64,000 bases of DNA from Peptococcaceae bacterium (GTDB lineage Bacteria > Bacillota > Desulfitobacteriia > Desulfitobacteriales > Syntrophobotulaceae), in assembly GCA_012517475.1 (NCBI GenBank), contig JAAYUV010000003.1:1-64000 (forward strand), read 5' to 3'. The first letter of the stretch is position 1. Each line of letters opens with the position of its first letter. A program made the translations under genes and the position numbers. The notes under the pieces are model-generated. The model was given only the letters and a program-made list of their open reading frames with translations. It was not told where the DNA came from and ran no database searches. Of this stretch, positions 24,519 through 29,801 are shown one piece after another.

Positions 24519-24911
24519 TCATTTATACCTTTTAGATAATATGACAAATGATAAGAAAATAGTAATTATCGTTAGAGTTGTCAAAAGACATGTTGTTTGA
24601 TACCCATTAATGACTATTACGTTAAATTGAAAAAGACCCATAATGATTATCATATAAGCTATAATGAAAAAAAAACTATGGTATATTCCTTTTTCCCGTA
24701 TCTTCCTGGAGCGTTCATCTTTTACGTTAAATTGAGGGTATAAATAAGAAAGACAAAAAGACATTATACTGAAGCCAAACAATAAAAGTTCCTGACCATT
24801 TGGAAAGCTTCCTGTGCGAAAAGCTACCGTGCCGTACAGAACAGTTAATGATAGGGATAATAAACCACAAGCAATATAGATTCGTCGACCGATTTTACCG
24901 CTTATCTTCAT
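24519..24911 (-). CDS. DUF2178-like four-TM membrane protein
   Basis: 130 aa with four hydrophobic helices (about 10-28, 37-57, 75-95, 102-122). The cytoplasmic segment NVKDERSRKIREKGIYHSF matches the DER...IREKA...SF pattern seen in DUF2178-type integral membrane proteins. GAGGAGG precedes the ATG by about six bases. Function unknown. Such genes are usually next to an XRE regulator; none is seen here. Confidence 0.6.
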   Translation of the reverse strand: MKISGKIGRRIYIACGLLSLSLTVLYGTVAFRTGSFPNGQELLLFGFSIMSFCLSYLYPQFNVKDERSRKIREKGIYHSFFFIIAYMIIIMGLFQFNVIVINGYQTTCLLTTLTIITIFLSFVILSKRYK

Positions 24912-24931: not shown

Positions 24932-25105
24932 TCAGTTAATACTTGTTTCCTCCCACTCATAACAAGGCAGTGTTACTCCTAAATCCACATAGAGCTCCTT
25001 CTGTTTCTCGAGAAGCTCACCAACGCGTAGTTCCTGATCTGGATTCTCAAAACATTCGATGACATCCAGTTTGTCTAGAACGCCTAGCATAGATAACGTT
25101 TGTAT
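24932..25105 (-). pseudogene. Transposase C-terminal remnant (IS1634-like)
   Basis: The minus-strand frame from about 25105 to the TGA at 24932 reads TLSMLGVLDKLDVIECFENP, then LRVGELLEKQKELYVDLGV. This resembles the C-terminal end of IS4/IS1634-type transposases. A stop lies four codons upstream of it and nothing else of the transposase is present, so it is debris from a lost insertion sequence. The assignment is from memory of family endings. Confidence 0.5.
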
Positions 25106-25322: not shown

Positions 25323-25736
25323 CTATTGGGTCTTAGATAATTTTTGCTTAACCCAGGGTGTAAAATTTTGAAGAATAGCTGCAACAAAAACTAGGTAAAA
25401 CATTATTTCAGATATGAAACACTGCCAGCATATATTATACCCTATACTAGAACTTGCCCATATCTGGATTGACATAAGACTTGATGATACTAATGCAGTA
25501 ATCAACAGAAAACCATGGTAAGAATACTCAAGAGTTTTTGATTTATAAGAAAACTTGTAAAAAAGTGCTGTTACCAGAGAACCTAGTAGTGCCATGAATG
25601 CTAGTTGTACTTGGTTTACCGGTAAGCTTATGGGTAATTGACTGCATGTATTACAGCTTATAAACATCTTATATATGACGAGATAGATCGAGTAGATTAT
25701 ATTAACAGCAATTAAAGTTTGTATTATTTTTTTCAT
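25323..25736 (-). CDS. Small four-cysteine membrane protein, possibly VKOR/DsbB-like
   Basis: 137 aa with four hydrophobic helices (about 5-22, 43-62, 72-93, 104-124). Extracytoplasmic segments carry a CNTC pair (about residues 28-31) and a second pair in YNICWQC (about 101-104). Two cysteine pairs on four helices is the plan of DsbB and VKOR thiol oxidases, which re-oxidise disulfide-forming partners with quinone. It lies downstream of the nine-cysteine peptide precursor, so a role in its disulfide formation is an attractive inference. An immunity function is the alternative. Confidence 0.55.
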   Translation of the reverse strand: MKKIIQTLIAVNIIYSIYLVIYKMFISCNTCSQLPISLPVNQVQLAFMALLGSLVTALFYKFSYKSKTLEYSYHGFLLITALVSSSLMSIQIWASSSIGYNICWQCFISEIMFYLVFVAAILQNFTPWVKQKLSKTQ

Positions 25737-25820
25737 TTTTGTCCTCTCTCAAACAAATAGGAAGTAGAATAAAAATAGTAAATTAATTTATCTCTGATTA
25801 ATCGTAGTACTTTAAGTCCA

Positions 25821-25984
25821 GTTCCGGCGTGTGAGAGCCACCCTTCCGTTTTTTCTAAGCCGCTGTTCTGAAACAGTGAATCCCATCTGTGGTAGACTCG
25901 TCATGGACCCTGCAAAGGGTTCTTCAATGGGTCGAGGGCTATGGCTCAATTTTTCCGGAGGGGCGGCTCACTGGTCTCTGGAAC
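25821..25984. repeat. Imperfect inverted-repeat element, 164 bp
   Basis: The left arm (GTTCCGGCGTGTGAGAGCCA and on to CCTTCCG) and the right arm (CCGGAGGGGCGGCTCACTGG to GGAAC) are imperfect reverse complements over about 28 bases. They enclose roughly 105 bp with no convincing gene. It sits between the peptide precursor and the four-cysteine membrane protein gene, in a 390-bp gap, and is more GC-rich than its surroundings. MITE-like relic or structured RNA are both possible. Confidence 0.5.
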
Positions 25985-26128
25985 GGTAGCTCTGTCAAAC
26001 TAGTATATTCAATCTAGTTATCTTTTCCGTTTGTATTTCGGATTATGAAATTAATCTTCTTGTTTGTTTTTTCACCTAAAAAATCTCACACACCACTTTG
26101 AGTAAGAAAATATAACCAAATTTTGCTG

Positions 26129-26911
26129 TTACATTTCGTAAGCCCAACAGGATGTTACGCAAGTTTGAGCTATTGATCCTAATCCGGCAAAGCAGGCGGC
26201 TATACAAATAACACATAATGGTGCGGCTGCACAAAGACTACATGCAGCCAAAATTGCTGAGATCATCCACGATGCAACGCCATAAGAAGATAAACAATCT
26301 CTCATGCAATCCCAGAAGGAGTATGCTGCTTGTTTTATTGAGAAGTGTGATAAGATTCCTGATTGAATTAAACTACTATTGGTCGTATCCATCTTTGGAG
26401 TAATTTTAGATAAATCAATCGCTGTACCATTTGCATCAGTTGCTGAACTATCAATGATCTCTCCACTTTCACTAATATTAAACTCGCCTTTAACCTCTCG
26501 TGTTTGCATTGTAAAGTGATAAATATTATTTTCTTGTTTACTAAAAGCTAATAATAAATAATTATCCAAGTTGCCTTCTTTATCAAATAGCTCAATATAA
26601 TTACTATAGTTATACCCTGTGTTATCTTTTATTGGCACATATACTGCAGTCATGTCTCCATATTCTTTAGGAAATTGTTTTACACGAATGCTGTCAACAT
26701 CAAAATTGTATTGAAATTTTTTTAATCTCTCAGAATTCAGTACTTTTGATGAAAAATTATCTTTAACATCCTGGGATACATCAACAATTAATGGAGCTTT
26801 AATTTTTTCAATGGGTTTTGCTAAAACGCTACCCGCTAGTAAAGGGGTTAATATAAGCGCAACAGTAAGTATGGTAGTAAGAAATACGTTCTTTTTATTT
26901 AACACTTTCAT
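26129..26911 (-). CDS. Halocin C8-like bacteriocin precursor
   Basis: 260 aa. It has a Sec-type signal (NVFLTTILTVALILTPLLAG, then VLAKP) and a polar middle region (about 35-195). The C-terminal 63 residues are hydrophobic with nine cysteines in CMRDC, CSLC, CVIC, AACF, TC and SC spacings, with short Ala/Gly-rich helices between. That layout matches precursors of the halocin C8-like antimicrobial family, in which a cysteine-rich C-terminal core is released and the N-terminal part gives immunity. AAAGGAG lies upstream of the ATG. The gene is 33 bp after the AgrD-like gene, so transcription is probably quorum-controlled. Confidence 0.7.
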   Translation of the reverse strand: MKVLNKKNVFLTTILTVALILTPLLAGSVLAKPIEKIKAPLIVDVSQDVKDNFSSKVLNSERLKKFQYNFDVDSIRVKQFPKEYGDMTAVYVPIKDNTGYNYSNYIELFDKEGNLDNYLLLAFSKQENNIYHFTMQTREVKGEFNISESGEIIDSSATDANGTAIDLSKITPKMDTTNSSLIQSGILSHFSIKQAAYSFWDCMRDCLSSYGVASWMISAILAACSLCAAAPLCVICIAACFAGLGSIAQTCVTSCWAYEM

Positions 26912-26944
26912 TTTTCAAGTCTCCTTTGCATTATTTAGTATTTG

Positions 26945-27073
26945 TTAGAGTTCTTTAGGCCTCTGGGGCTCATAAAACCACCCAAAACAATTTGGGGTAA
27001 CGATCCCGATTGTACCGATAAAAGCTAATGCAGATAACAAAATTGAAGGTACAGTTCTACTTTTTCTTCTCAT
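26945..27073 (-). CDS. agrD: AgrD-like autoinducing prepeptide, 42 aa
   Basis: Short gene missed by length cut-offs, with GGAG about nine bases upstream of ATG (27071-27073) and TAA at 26945-26947. The N-terminus is an amphipathic leader (MRRKSRTVPSILLSALAFIG). The C-terminus reads TPNCFGWFYEPQRPKEL. In AgrD proteins a cysteine four residues before the cut gives a thiolactone ring and an acidic/proline tail is removed; Listeria AgrD has CFMFV followed by YEPKSP. The predicted autoinducer is therefore a ring on CFGWF with a short N-terminal tail. It lies between agrB and the halocin-like gene. Confidence 0.82.
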   Translation of the reverse strand: MRRKSRTVPSILLSALAFIGTIGIVTPNCFGWFYEPQRPKEL

Positions 27074-27119
27074 ACTTCTCAACTCCTTTCCTTAAATTTT
27101 AATAATTATCCTCAGCGGC

Positions 27120-27191
27120 ATTATACATTTTCTTTCCCATCAAATGGTTATTTCGGAATGAAAGTGTCATTTTAGGGAACGAAATGACACT
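27120..27191 (-). promoter_or_regulatory. agrD promoter with LytTR-type direct repeats and palindrome
   Basis: On the minus strand a TATAAT -10 box (27120-27125) lies about 45 bp ahead of agrD. No good -35 box is found at the right distance. Upstream are two direct repeats TTTCATTCC and TTTCGTTCC (27155-27163 and 27176-27184), spaced 21 bp start to start, the one-turn-pair spacing used by LytTR regulators. They lie within a perfect 10-bp inverted repeat AGTGTCATTT/AAATGACACT (27163-27172, 27182-27191). The layout suggests activation by the LytTR protein at 29097-29801. Confidence 0.55.
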
Positions 27192-27214
27192 ATTTAGAAT
27201 AAGTAAAAATTAAA

Positions 27215-27265
27215 CCCCTGACAATACCTTCCCATCTTGAAAAACAGAGAGGTATTTGCCAGGGG
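27215..27265 (-). terminator. Terminator after agrB
   Basis: CCCCTG (27215-27220) and CAGGGG (27260-27265) pair, with a further AATACCT/AGGTATT stem inside. It is 24 bp past the agrB stop and is followed on the minus strand by TTTAATTTTT. It separates the kinase-agrB transcript from the agrD-bacteriocin transcript. Confidence 0.7.
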
Positions 27266-27288
27266 TCTATGTCTCTATTCATATTTTC

Positions 27289-27726
27289 CTATATTCCAAA
27301 CCTCTGCATGATTCGGTCGCTTCCAAGAATAATCTTTTGCCCGATAGGACTTGCCATAAAAGCCTGAAGGGCTAGCCCTGCAATCACCGGGACAATGCAG
27401 GTGTATCCTGTATGAGCAGCCAATACTTTTACCGGGAAAGACAATCCAATAAAAATGACCAAAGTAAACACCAAACACCGCCTATAGCTGGAACAATGGG
27501 CGCCCCCCGTAAAAACCCGTAAAAACAAAGCAGATACCATAATAAGAAACGTATCAAAAGCTGTTCCAAAAAGGGCTGAAATACTAGTAGTCAAGACTAA
27601 CTCTATTGCTATTCCCATAAATAAGGATAAGCCATATTCTATCTTCGCACTTTCAGAGGTATTTAAATGAACGTCTTTTACTAAGTAGTCGGTTATTCGA
27701 TGGGCAGTCCCCTCCAGATCAAACAT
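27289..27726 (-). CDS. agrB: Accessory gene regulator AgrB-like peptidase
   Basis: Membrane cysteine protease that cuts the C-terminal tail of AgrD and forms the thiolactone. At 145 aa it is short next to staphylococcal AgrB (about 190) but within the clostridial range. The catalytic histidine is in GGAHCSS and the catalytic cysteine seven residues later in YRRC, matching the His77-Cys84 spacing. About four hydrophobic helices follow. Its gene overlaps no other and starts 7 bp after the kinase gene. Confidence 0.85.
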   Translation of the reverse strand: MFDLEGTAHRITDYLVKDVHLNTSESAKIEYGLSLFMGIAIELVLTTSISALFGTAFDTFLIMVSALFLRVFTGGAHCSSYRRCLVFTLVIFIGLSFPVKVLAAHTGYTCIVPVIAGLALQAFMASPIGQKIILGSDRIMQRFGI

Positions 27727-27732
27727 AGCCCC

Positions 27733-28593
27733 TTATTCCTCCTCCAACCGATGTCTGGGAATCTCTATGGTCACCTTGAAGATACCGTCAGAACAATTGA
27801 TTGATACATTGCCATCCAGTCGTTCCGTCAGCCTCTTCACGATGAAAAGCCCTTGCCCTCTTCCTTCCTGCTTAGTGCTAAAGCCCTCTCTAAAATAGTC
27901 CGCATCACTAATGTTACTTAATAGCATGGGGTTAGAAATTTCAAATATATATTCCAGCGGGTCGCGCTGAATGGAGATACATACTTTTCGCATCGGTGAA
28001 TCAAAATCTTCAACCGCTTCCAGGGCGTTATTCAAAACATTTCCTAAGATCGTCACTAAATCCAGAACGTGCTTTTTACTTGACCTTAAACTCGCGACAT
28101 TTTTCAGTTCCACCCGGATATCTTTATTTTTTGCCAGTTGAATCTTGGAAGAGAGAAGAACATCAATCTCATCGAGGCCTGTTTCAATCTTTAATAGGGC
28201 ATCATTAACCGTATCAAGATAAGACTCCAGGTAATCATTCAGTTCAGGATATTTCCCTAATTTCAACAACCCCATGACTACGGTCAAGTGGTTTTTTAGA
28301 TCATGATGATGCTGTCTGTATATCCGGGTTTGTTCTACCATATGGGCATGCTTTAAGGAGGTCAATTTTAAACGTTCGGCCTCTAACCCACTGATATAAA
28401 GATATCTGACAACAACCAATGCAATCAGGTTTAAAACAAGAATTAATAGTCCGAAGGCCATATCCACAAAGTTTGAATTGGAGGACTGAAAAAAAGAAAA
28501 TCTCTTCATGTAGTTATTATTTAATAACAGTACGATCAGTAGGGACTGAATGATTAAGAACAAAATTGAAGTCTTATAGATATTAATTTTCAT
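27733..28593 (-). CDS. AgrC-type GHKL sensor histidine kinase
   Basis: 286 aa. Two N-terminal membrane helices (about 7-25 and 43-66), then the phosphoacceptor motif RQHHHDLKNHLTVVMGLLKL with histidine near residue 99, then a GHKL ATPase domain with NVLNNALEAVED (N box) and GRGQGLFIVKRL (G box). This is the HPK10 kinase class used by Agr systems. The membrane part is only two helices, while AgrC usually has about six. The 5-helix protein encoded just upstream may supply the rest of the sensor. Confidence 0.82.
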   Translation of the reverse strand: MKINIYKTSILFLIIQSLLIVLLLNNNYMKRFSFFQSSNSNFVDMAFGLLILVLNLIALVVVRYLYISGLEAERLKLTSLKHAHMVEQTRIYRQHHHDLKNHLTVVMGLLKLGKYPELNDYLESYLDTVNDALLKIETGLDEIDVLLSSKIQLAKNKDIRVELKNVASLRSSKKHVLDLVTILGNVLNNALEAVEDFDSPMRKVCISIQRDPLEYIFEISNPMLLSNISDADYFREGFSTKQEGRGQGLFIVKRLTERLDGNVSINCSDGIFKVTIEIPRHRLEEE

Positions 28594-28621
28594 ACAGGAT
28601 ATCTAAATCCTTTTTCGTATT

Positions 28622-29080
28622 TTACTCACGGTCTGGCTGGCGGGAAATAATATATCGAATAATACAAGAAATCACAATTGCATACGCAACCTGCGGCAAA
28701 AACCATAATACCTTTAGATAAAACTCTTCGCCTAACCTGGTCGGATTAATCCCCGTTAAGATCTGTAAACTCTTGACATTCAAAAACTCGATAATCAAGT
28801 ACAGAGATATTGACGTAAGTGCCGATGTCGCAGCTTCATAGACCGAAAATTTCCCAAGAATTTTCAGAAGAAAGATAGTTATTATACTCAAGATACAAAT
28901 ATTAAGGATATAACTTTCCACCATTCCGCGGACAAGATTAGCCAAAATTCCCAAGGTAACTCCCATAACCGCCAATTGAAACCCGGAGATCTTCTTATCT
29001 GATAAACTGAAGGCTAAACAAAAAATAACGGTAGCTTCGGGTATTGAAAAAATAAGTATCTCAAGTATTCTTTCATGCAT
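28622..29080 (-). CDS. Five-TM membrane protein, possible split sensor subunit
   Basis: 152 aa with about five hydrophobic helices (7-25, 33-50, 57-75, 84-105, 128-146). No kinase domain is present. It sits between the response regulator and the kinase gene. AgrC N-terminal sensor domains are about 200 residues with five to seven helices, so this may be the detached peptide-sensing module of the short kinase. That is inference from gene order. Could also be an independent transporter or unknown protein. Confidence 0.5.
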   Translation of the reverse strand: MHERILEILIFSIPEATVIFCLAFSLSDKKISGFQLAVMGVTLGILANLVRGMVESYILNICILSIITIFLLKILGKFSVYEAATSALTSISLYLIIEFLNVKSLQILTGINPTRLGEEFYLKVLWFLPQVAYAIVISCIIRYIISRQPDRE

Positions 29081-29096
29081 CCTATTCGTCCTCTGT

Positions 29097-29801
29097 CTAA
29101 TTCAAGTTTTTTATTCTTGATCTGAATTCAGAATAAAGATCCTTTTGCAGATAGGCGCAAGAATCAATACCTTTAAAACTGACTTGATACATTGTCCGCG
29201 AAGCAGGTTTAATGGATTCTACGAGTCTCATATTCACCAAAAACGAACGGCTGGATTTGAAAAACATTTCACAATCAAGCCGGGACTCAATTTCTTTGAT
29301 GGACTGCAAACTTGTTAAAGTAGCATTCACCATATAGACCATACTCTTTTTCATGAACGCTTCTACAAAAAAGATATTCTTTTGTTCAACTACCTCTATG
29401 GAATCTTGAGTCTTTAACTCAATTTTTAAGTTAGACATCATGGTTTTACTTTTTATCCGCATCAACGTTTGATTGAGCCTTTCAGCATCCAGGGGTTTGG
29501 TAATATAATCGGTCGCATAGAGGCGAAAAGCATCGTGTGTATGATGTTCGTCCGCAGTAATAAAGATGATATCCAACATCGGAAAATCCCTGCGGACGCT
29601 TTCAGCAACTTGAATTCCTGAAATCCCCGGCAAACCAATATCCAGGAATAAAATGTCCGGGCAGAATCTTTCACGCTGGGATAAAAACTCCTCTCCCCTG
29701 TCGAAAACTCCGGTAATTTCCATCCCCTCTGCAGATGCGACCTTACTAGCCAATTCTTTTCTGAAAAAGGAATCATCTTCGACAATTACTACTTTGGACA
29801 T
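29097..29801 (-). CDS. LytTR-family response regulator (AgrA-like)
   Basis: 234 aa. N-terminal receiver domain (VVIVEDDSFFRKELA; phosphoacceptor aspartate in DILFLDIGLPG, near residue 57; lysine in DYITKPLD near residue 103). C-terminal LytTR DNA-binding domain (about 140-230) with FVEAFMKKSMVYMVNA and FKSSRSFLVNMRLVES. It is the first gene of the kinase-agrB operon. It is likely the activator of the agrD-bacteriocin transcript, given the direct repeats upstream of agrD. Confidence 0.88.
   Translation of the reverse strand: MSKVVIVEDDSFFRKELASKVASAEGMEITGVFDRGEEFLSQRERFCPDILFLDIGLPGISGIQVAESVRRDFPMLDIIFITADEHHTHDAFRLYATDYITKPLDAERLNQTLMRIKSKTMMSNLKIELKTQDSIEVVEQKNIFFVEAFMKKSMVYMVNATLTSLQSIKEIESRLDCEMFFKSSRSFLVNMRLVESIKPASRTMYQVSFKGIDSCAYLQKDLYSEFRSRIKNLN

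Follow-up and report, generated by a model that had tools for sequence, protein, structure and literature searches.

The 64,000-nucleotide stretch analysed here (the window; positions 1 to 64,000 of contig JAAYUV010000003.1, assembly GCA_012517475.1, from a Peptococcaceae bacterium) contains seven genes at 25323-29801, all on the minus strand, that we read, with a probability of roughly 0.7, as a quorum-sensing (Agr)-controlled, disulfide-rich bacteriocin system with a dedicated VKOR-type oxidase. The genes encode a LytTR response regulator, a membrane protein with five transmembrane (TM) segments, a GHKL histidine kinase, AgrB, AgrD, a secreted precursor with a cysteine-rich tail and a four-cysteine membrane protein. 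The original prediction, made from the letters of the window, had named these seven genes, a 33-bp gap after agrD, a nine-cysteine tail and a four-cysteine protein, and all these coordinates and counts were confirmed. Because the same partnership of precursor and membrane protein recurs in distant Bacillota, the locus appears to be a genuine weapon system that has yet to be described, and not a fortuitous grouping of genes. There is an even chance, in our judgement, that it stands for a new class of quorum-controlled, disulfide-rich toxins secreted by Bacillota, many of them anaerobes, with a mini-VKOR oxidase, a shared leader and exchanged tails, agrD in the effector transcript and a split AgrC.

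The Agr module and its probable two-part sensor

The assignment to Agr-type quorum sensing was borne out by curated models for AgrB, AgrD, the GHKL kinase and the LytTR regulator. The regulator, in the AgrA role (29097-29801; 234 aa), matched Pfam Response_reg (3.6e-20) and LytTR (2.2e-13) and its receiver aspartate sits in DILFLDIGLPG. The AgrB peptidase/exporter (27289-27726; 145 aa) matched PF04647 at 5.4e-22, and its catalytic pair H77 and C84 is intact in an H-x6-C motif beginning at residue 77. The agrD gene (26945-27073), preceded by the ribosome-binding site GGAAAGGAG, encodes from its ATG a 42-aa autoinducer precursor with the core NCFGW-F followed by YEPQRPKEL, and it scored 32 bits against TIGR04223, for which the cut-off is 19.

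The GHKL kinase, in the AgrC role (27733-28593; 286 aa), carries HATPase_c_5 (1.9e-16), two TM segments and the H-box HHDLKNH. The staphylococcal AgrC model matched it (7.8e-13) from model position 138 onward only, and the one-piece AgrC with a polytopic sensor, which is typical though not essential for such systems, was not found in the window. The 152-aa protein encoded directly before the kinase (28622-29080) has five hydrophobic segments and matched no Pfam or NCBIfam family. Its gene also directly precedes the kinase gene in the genomes G380, G150 and G298, and the pairing of a five-TM protein with a two-TM kinase (window 27733-29080; L020 5111-6462; L042 4893-6243; L043 5358-7044) was present in 4/4 of the complete Agr loci examined. 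The five-TM protein is thus probably the detached N-terminal, sensor half of a split AgrC that would complement the kinase.

The four-cysteine membrane protein as a remote relative of VKOR

The original prediction had proposed a possible thiol oxidase, and this was upheld for the putative VKOR-like four-TM protein of 137 aa at 25323-25736 by profile homology and by invariant cysteine pairs. The protein holds exactly four cysteines, C28xxC31 after TM1 and C103xxC106 at the opening of TM4. The helices predicted at residues 2-26, 42-62, 67-98 and 104-136 place C28 and C31 in the TM1-TM2 loop and C103 and C106 at the start of TM4, which is the topology of VKOR. Both pairs are invariant among the 13 family members. 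The family profile matched a VKOR reference (L064, itself confirmed by Pfam with 56.8 bits to PF07884) at an HMM E-value of 2.8e-7 and a second VKOR at 0.0019. The profile-profile alignment with VKOR was nearly full length and scored about 31 over 107 columns, whereas 60 column-shuffled controls scored at most 17 over about 10 columns.

The VKOR-like structure 6wvi topped the list of structural neighbours (Z 11.5, rmsd 3.4, 127 aligned residues). Fold similarity by itself proves little here, because unrelated helical bundles scored close behind; Foldseek gave an E-value of 0.59, and the oxidase model had a pLDDT of 73. No Pfam or NCBIfam family, PF07884 included, matched the window protein, and PF07884 matched 3/13 of the relatives weakly, the best at 0.028. 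As these values lie below the Pfam cut-off for VKOR, we call the protein VKOR-like. An identity as DsbB (PF02600) was rejected, since DsbB sequences gave E > 1 against the oxidase profile. In the window's own genome (3.68 Mb; labelled G000) no DsbB match was found at E = 1 and no VKOR above cut-off, and the membrane protein is the only recognisable intact gene of DsbB/VKOR type found there. Judged by these profiles the four-cysteine protein is remotely related to VKOR, and it probably makes the disulfide bonds of the precursor tail by a predicted quinone-dependent thiol oxidation. The same genome also has a second, decayed member of this oxidase family (G000:C33:51905-52081; L009 1462-1695, minus strand), with no recognisable precursor nearby. 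No relative of the oxidase was found in plasmids.

The secreted precursor and its cysteine-rich tail

The precursor gene (26129-26911) encodes 260 aa, with a signal peptide at about 1-31, an N-terminal domain and a cysteine-rich tail. The 9/9 cysteines fall within the last 63 residues (SFWDC...; 26132-26320), the presumed mature peptide. No Pfam or NCBIfam family matched the precursor. Among the 83 genomes of the window's class, none other was found to carry the precursor. In the wider sample of 398 Bacillota genomes, a profile built with two plasmid-borne relatives (Bacillus pumilus pBP6000 and Streptomyces sp. BHT-5-2) matched Thermosyntropha lipolytica DSM 11003 (G241; 5e-39), the metagenome-assembled genome HGW-Firmicutes-15 (G380; 2e-12), G201 (4e-9) and, weakly, G217; another relative is carried by B. 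licheniformis pFL5. Viral contigs gave no relatives of the precursor or the oxidase. The homology spans the N-terminal domain and the tail alike.

The tails of Bacillus, Streptomyces and G217 have six cysteines in a common pattern. Those of the window, Thermosyntropha and HGW-Firmicutes-15 have an extra cysteine near the start (FWxC) and another near the end, and the ten-cysteine tail of G201 has both additions too; the apparently frame-broken precursor of L041 (Paenibacillus) was excluded from this count. Because the first and last cysteines are gained together in clostridial members, they are suggested to pair with each other and so to close the peptide end to end. The window tail has one further, unpaired-looking cysteine, C240. 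The structure prediction that had been suggested for the tail was carried out and returned low confidence there (pLDDT about 45-65), as against about 70-85 for the N-terminal domain, which had no convincing match in the PDB (best E 0.058, TM-score under 0.1).

Linkage of oxidase and precursor across Bacillota

In Thermosyntropha and HGW-Firmicutes-15, the protein adjoining the precursor is 32-38% identical to the window's 137-aa protein. The linkage exceeds chance, because relatives of both genes sit side by side in distant Bacillota. A profile of the three oxidase sequences (window, G241 and G380) matched 13/398 genomes, which after exclusion of a short and weak match in G228 left 14 loci in 12 genomes. 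The neighbourhoods of all 14 were read; two of them (G429 and G241:C39) stop at contig ends, leaving 12 judgeable loci. At 12/12 of these the oxidase has, adjoining it or one to two genes away, either an exported precursor or a whole or fragmentary protein with a leader of the same kind. Conserved linkage in relatives had been named beforehand as one finding on which the original prediction would stand or fall, and it was found at every judgeable locus. Cysteine-rich tails are present at nine of the 12 (G000, G241, G380, two loci of G298, G265, G131, G085 and G413); in G298:C28 and G085 a frame change interrupts the precursor, and G313 retains a broken leader only. The tails of G413 and G298:C28 had a sub-cut-off likeness to the halocin C8 domain (0.66 and 0.0079) and the others matched nothing. 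A single oxidase family thus serves cysteine-rich tails of several kinds, which are not all related to one another.

Six loci also have LytTR or Agr genes, in differing gene orders. The whole Agr module (five-TM protein, kinase, AgrB, AgrD and LytTR) adjoins the oxidase and precursor divergently in HGW-Firmicutes-15. In G150 and G298 the five-TM protein, kinase, AgrB and LytTR genes are followed by agrD, oxidase and precursor in series; this agrD (ending TTCWFHWYQPKVPEKG) was missed by the open reading frame (ORF) filter and was recovered in the gap directly upstream of the oxidase. The placement of agrD in the predicted effector transcript is seen in two lineages and recurs in relatives. G109 has agrD and a LytTR remnant, G265 a LytTR gene, and G413, on a short contig, a LytTR-like fragment about 1.5 kb past the precursor. 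No Agr genes lie near the halocin C8-type loci G131, G085 and G298:C28. The expectation of one gene order in relatives held for the linkage and not for order and orientation, and because these vary between families, the Agr association is not one frozen block. In several relatives the two genes, oxidase and precursor, share a few bases where the stop codon of one meets the start codon of the other.

A leader of the form x-W-R/K..AVxLAVxxLAxPAxxG was observed on oxidase-linked secreted proteins with unrelated bodies (L042, L043, L044, L046, L049, L051 and L052), and 536-aa proteins with a similar leader lie farther away at L042 14388-15998 and L052 3613-5223. The pattern suggests that cargo has been exchanged behind a conserved leader. 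In Thermosyntropha lipolytica the precursor-oxidase pair (L019 8153-10669) is bracketed by fragments of one insertion sequence (IS)-like ORF, and the second oxidase of this genome (L047) adjoins the same IS-like ORF, as in a mobile cassette.

The putative control region between agrB and agrD

The binding sites of LytTR regulators such as AgrA have a 21-bp period. Between agrB and agrD, on the minus strand, an intrinsic terminator follows agrB at 27201-27269, a long hairpin (fold -32.3 kcal/mol, z -5.8) with the U-rich tail UUUAAUUUUU. It is followed at 27155-27184 by a LytTR-type direct repeat, TTTCGTTCC-N12-TTTCATTCC, which has the 21-bp period, overlaps a 10-bp inverted repeat and occurs once in the 3.68-Mb genome. 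A TATAAT element at 27120-27125, about 30 bases downstream of the repeat, was read as the -10-like element of a putative agrD-precursor promoter, for which the repeat copies would fall near -45 and -66. A period test with ten-base words and 300 shuffles per region gave 21 bp as the top single period upstream of, or divergent from, the oxidase genes of G380, G298, G109 and G265 (P 0 to 0.02), all of which carry LytTR genes or remnants. The signal was weaker in G150, and the period was not favoured at loci lacking Agr/LytTR genes.

The precursor ATG lies 33 bp after the agrD stop codon. Given the terminator after agrB and the LytTR-type repeat before agrD, with such repeats recurring in relatives, agrD and the precursor are most likely co-transcribed in response to the signal and apart from the receptor genes. 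The single transcript that had been proposed is thus supported for agrD and precursor, and probably excludes the agr regulatory genes. The promoter and terminator between agrB and agrD probably belong to the gene set.

The region between precursor and oxidase includes a strongly structured stretch (25825-25975, minus strand; fold z -3.3 for 25780-26020), which is multi-branched and higher in G+C than its flanks. The fold at 25780-26020 matched no Rfam family and nothing in plasmids or phages; it may function as a regulatory RNA, or else be an inserted element. Hairpins of the form GCCCY...RGGGC and CCTTTGcagaGCAAAGG were seen between agrD (or LytTR) and the oxidase in four relatives (L042 7955-8110, L043 8747-8902, L044 8680-8835 on the minus strand, and L046 8395-8560). 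They are preserved across two families with a few compensatory changes and are possibly a conserved leader RNA. No clear common element was seen between these hairpins and the window's structured stretch, and none of the intergenic structures was assigned to a family when the window and the loci of five relatives were searched against Rfam.

Proposed mechanism and alternative explanations

The gene identities, the linkage, the VKOR relationship, the terminator and the repeat are established by sequence, and from them we infer the biochemical steps, the antibacterial activity and the immunity. AgrB would process AgrD into a cyclic peptide signal, which the two-part sensor of five-TM protein and GHKL kinase would detect, phosphorylating the LytTR regulator. 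The regulator would then bind the 21-bp-period repeat upstream of agrD and activate agrD, in positive feedback, together with the precursor and probably the oxidase. The precursor would be exported by its signal peptide and its tail cysteines oxidised to disulfides by the VKOR-like protein with quinone. The tail of about 60 residues would be cleaved from the N-terminal domain and act as an antibacterial peptide, and self-protection may come from the N-terminal domain, as with HalI in halocin C8, and/or from the protein encoded at 24519-24911.

Several observations weigh against this bacteriocin system. Antibacterial activity is a prediction for every member alike. The number of cysteines in the window tail, nine, is odd. 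Some precursor relatives (G201, B. pumilus pBP6000 and Streptomyces) have no adjacent oxidase of this family. In G150 and G109 the shared leader precedes a cysteine-poor body of 382 aa, frameshifted in G150. The oxidase gene of the window starts 392 bp after the precursor, behind the structured stretch, and the window repeat taken by itself is statistically weak (P about 0.07). The Thermosyntropha pair has no Agr genes nearby. Both the reliance on predicted activity and the 382-aa proteins, which are not cysteine-rich or bacteriocin-like, would fit an explanation that keeps the Agr circuit and the oxidase and takes the tail for a disulfide peptide with a structural, adhesive or signalling role, or for a modifier of the cell's own envelope; hydrophobic tails could lodge in membranes. 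We consider this unlikely, as similar leaders combined with strongly varied tails (12-cysteine, halocin C8-like and window type) are typical of antagonism, and relatives on small Bacillus plasmids adjoin a candidate immunity gene.

That the four-cysteine protein is mainly an immunity protein, with structural or sensory cysteines and no enzymatic action on the peptide, would agree with its constant place next to the precursor and with the frequent immunity role of small membrane proteins adjacent to bacteriocins. It is nevertheless improbable, given the two CxxC pairs that stay invariant in 13 diverged members at the positions of VKOR, the resemblance of the family profile to VKOR, and the thioredoxin and DsbB-type enzyme that occupy the corresponding place on pFL5; its partnership with quite unrelated tails is also better suited to an enzyme than to a specific immunity protein. 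The Agr genes and the precursor-oxidase pair might also have come together by chance or by hitch-hiking on mobile DNA, with no regulatory coupling, as the Agr-less Thermosyntropha pair between IS-like fragments and the lack of Agr at most halocin C8-type loci could indicate. Such an origin is very improbable, since Agr is linked in at least three families with differing gene orders, agrD lies within the effector transcript in two lineages, and the 21-bp repeats occur only where LytTR genes are present.

If the quorum-controlled bacteriocin system is real, it brings together Agr signalling, a bacteriocin with several disulfides and a VKOR-type enzyme dedicated to forming them, a combination absent from the papers found: in the open-licence literature we found no paper that combines VKOR, bacteriocin and disulfide, nor any account of halocin C8-like proteins from Bacillota. 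Few disulfides are expected to form in anaerobes, and to our knowledge thiol oxidases have received little attention in Gram-positive bacteria. As every judgeable locus pointed to a secreted cysteine-rich peptide or to a homologue of the leader, the oxidase family offers a handle for finding such peptides that no current model recognises.

A candidate immunity gene and the pFL5 locus

A 130-aa membrane protein encoded at 24519-24911 (minus strand), outside the seven-gene block, is a candidate immunity protein with relatives near related precursors. One relative, with 37% identity, adjoins the broken precursor in Paenibacillus montaniterrae, and others lie near precursors on B. licheniformis pFL5 and on a B. 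subtilis plasmid. Its gene is a possible member of the set as an immunity gene; because relatives are also present on other plasmids that have no precursor, the protein may have a more general role. By analogy, the N-terminal domain of the precursor is the other immunity candidate. A 52-aa ORF (24932-25090, minus strand) directly before the 130-aa protein gene resembles the tail of a broken gene.

The pFL5 plasmid is a 9-kb mobilizable plasmid with an unannotated, bacteriocin-like locus (L056 2443-4821) that contains, in this order, a thioredoxin, a DsbB-type oxidoreductase, a cysteine-rich precursor annotated as hypothetical and the relative of the 24519-24911 protein. As read from these genes, pFL5 has the same functional set as the window, with a different oxidase.

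Comparison with known systems

In halocin C8, the precursor ProC8 gives HalI and HalC8, and the N-terminal domain is the immunity part (PMC11509114). The window's precursor shares this architecture, being secreted, of similar length and with a C-terminal cysteine-rich peptide, and differs in that no Tat signal was seen in it. The halocin C8 domain (TIGR04449) gave no match at E = 1, whether genome-wide, to the whole precursor or to the tail, so membership in that family was rejected and "halocin C8-like", as first proposed, is to be understood as an analogy only. We know of no halocin C8 locus that carries Agr or VKOR genes. TIGR04450 (Gpos_C8_like, "putative immunity/bacteriocin fusion bifunctional protein") covers precursors from Gram-positive bacteria that are about 250 aa long and end in a cysteine-rich tail; membership here was also rejected, as no match was listed for the window protein and the tail pattern differs, and two relatives, Thermosyntropha (0.17) and B. 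pumilus (1.8), had sub-threshold values.

The oxidase resembles VKOR (PF07884) in its four-TM core, the cysteine pair in the TM1-TM2 loop and the CxxC at the start of TM4, in profile and perhaps in fold, and differs in being very short, below the Pfam cut-off and with no fused or adjacent thioredoxin partner seen. In the sublancin/BdbB system, a dedicated membrane thiol oxidase is encoded next to the gene of a disulfide-containing bacteriocin. This system and the pFL5-type loci are like the window in that a membrane thiol oxidase adjoins a bacteriocin or bacteriocin-like gene, whereas they have a DsbB-type oxidase with thioredoxin and no Agr system.

The nearest working analogue, likened by functional plan and not by sequence comparison, is the Fsr-EntV system of Enterococcus faecalis, in which a peptide signal of Agr type governs a bacteriocin that is cleaved out of a propeptide. 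EntV (EF1097, enterocin O16) is an Fsr-controlled bacteriocin made with a signal peptide, a propeptide and a C-terminal 68-aa part, and its activity requires a disulfide and DsbA (PMC6606811). EntV has one disulfide, is cut by GelE and relies on a DsbA encoded elsewhere, whereas the window combines eight or nine tail cysteines with an adjacent gene for a VKOR-like protein.

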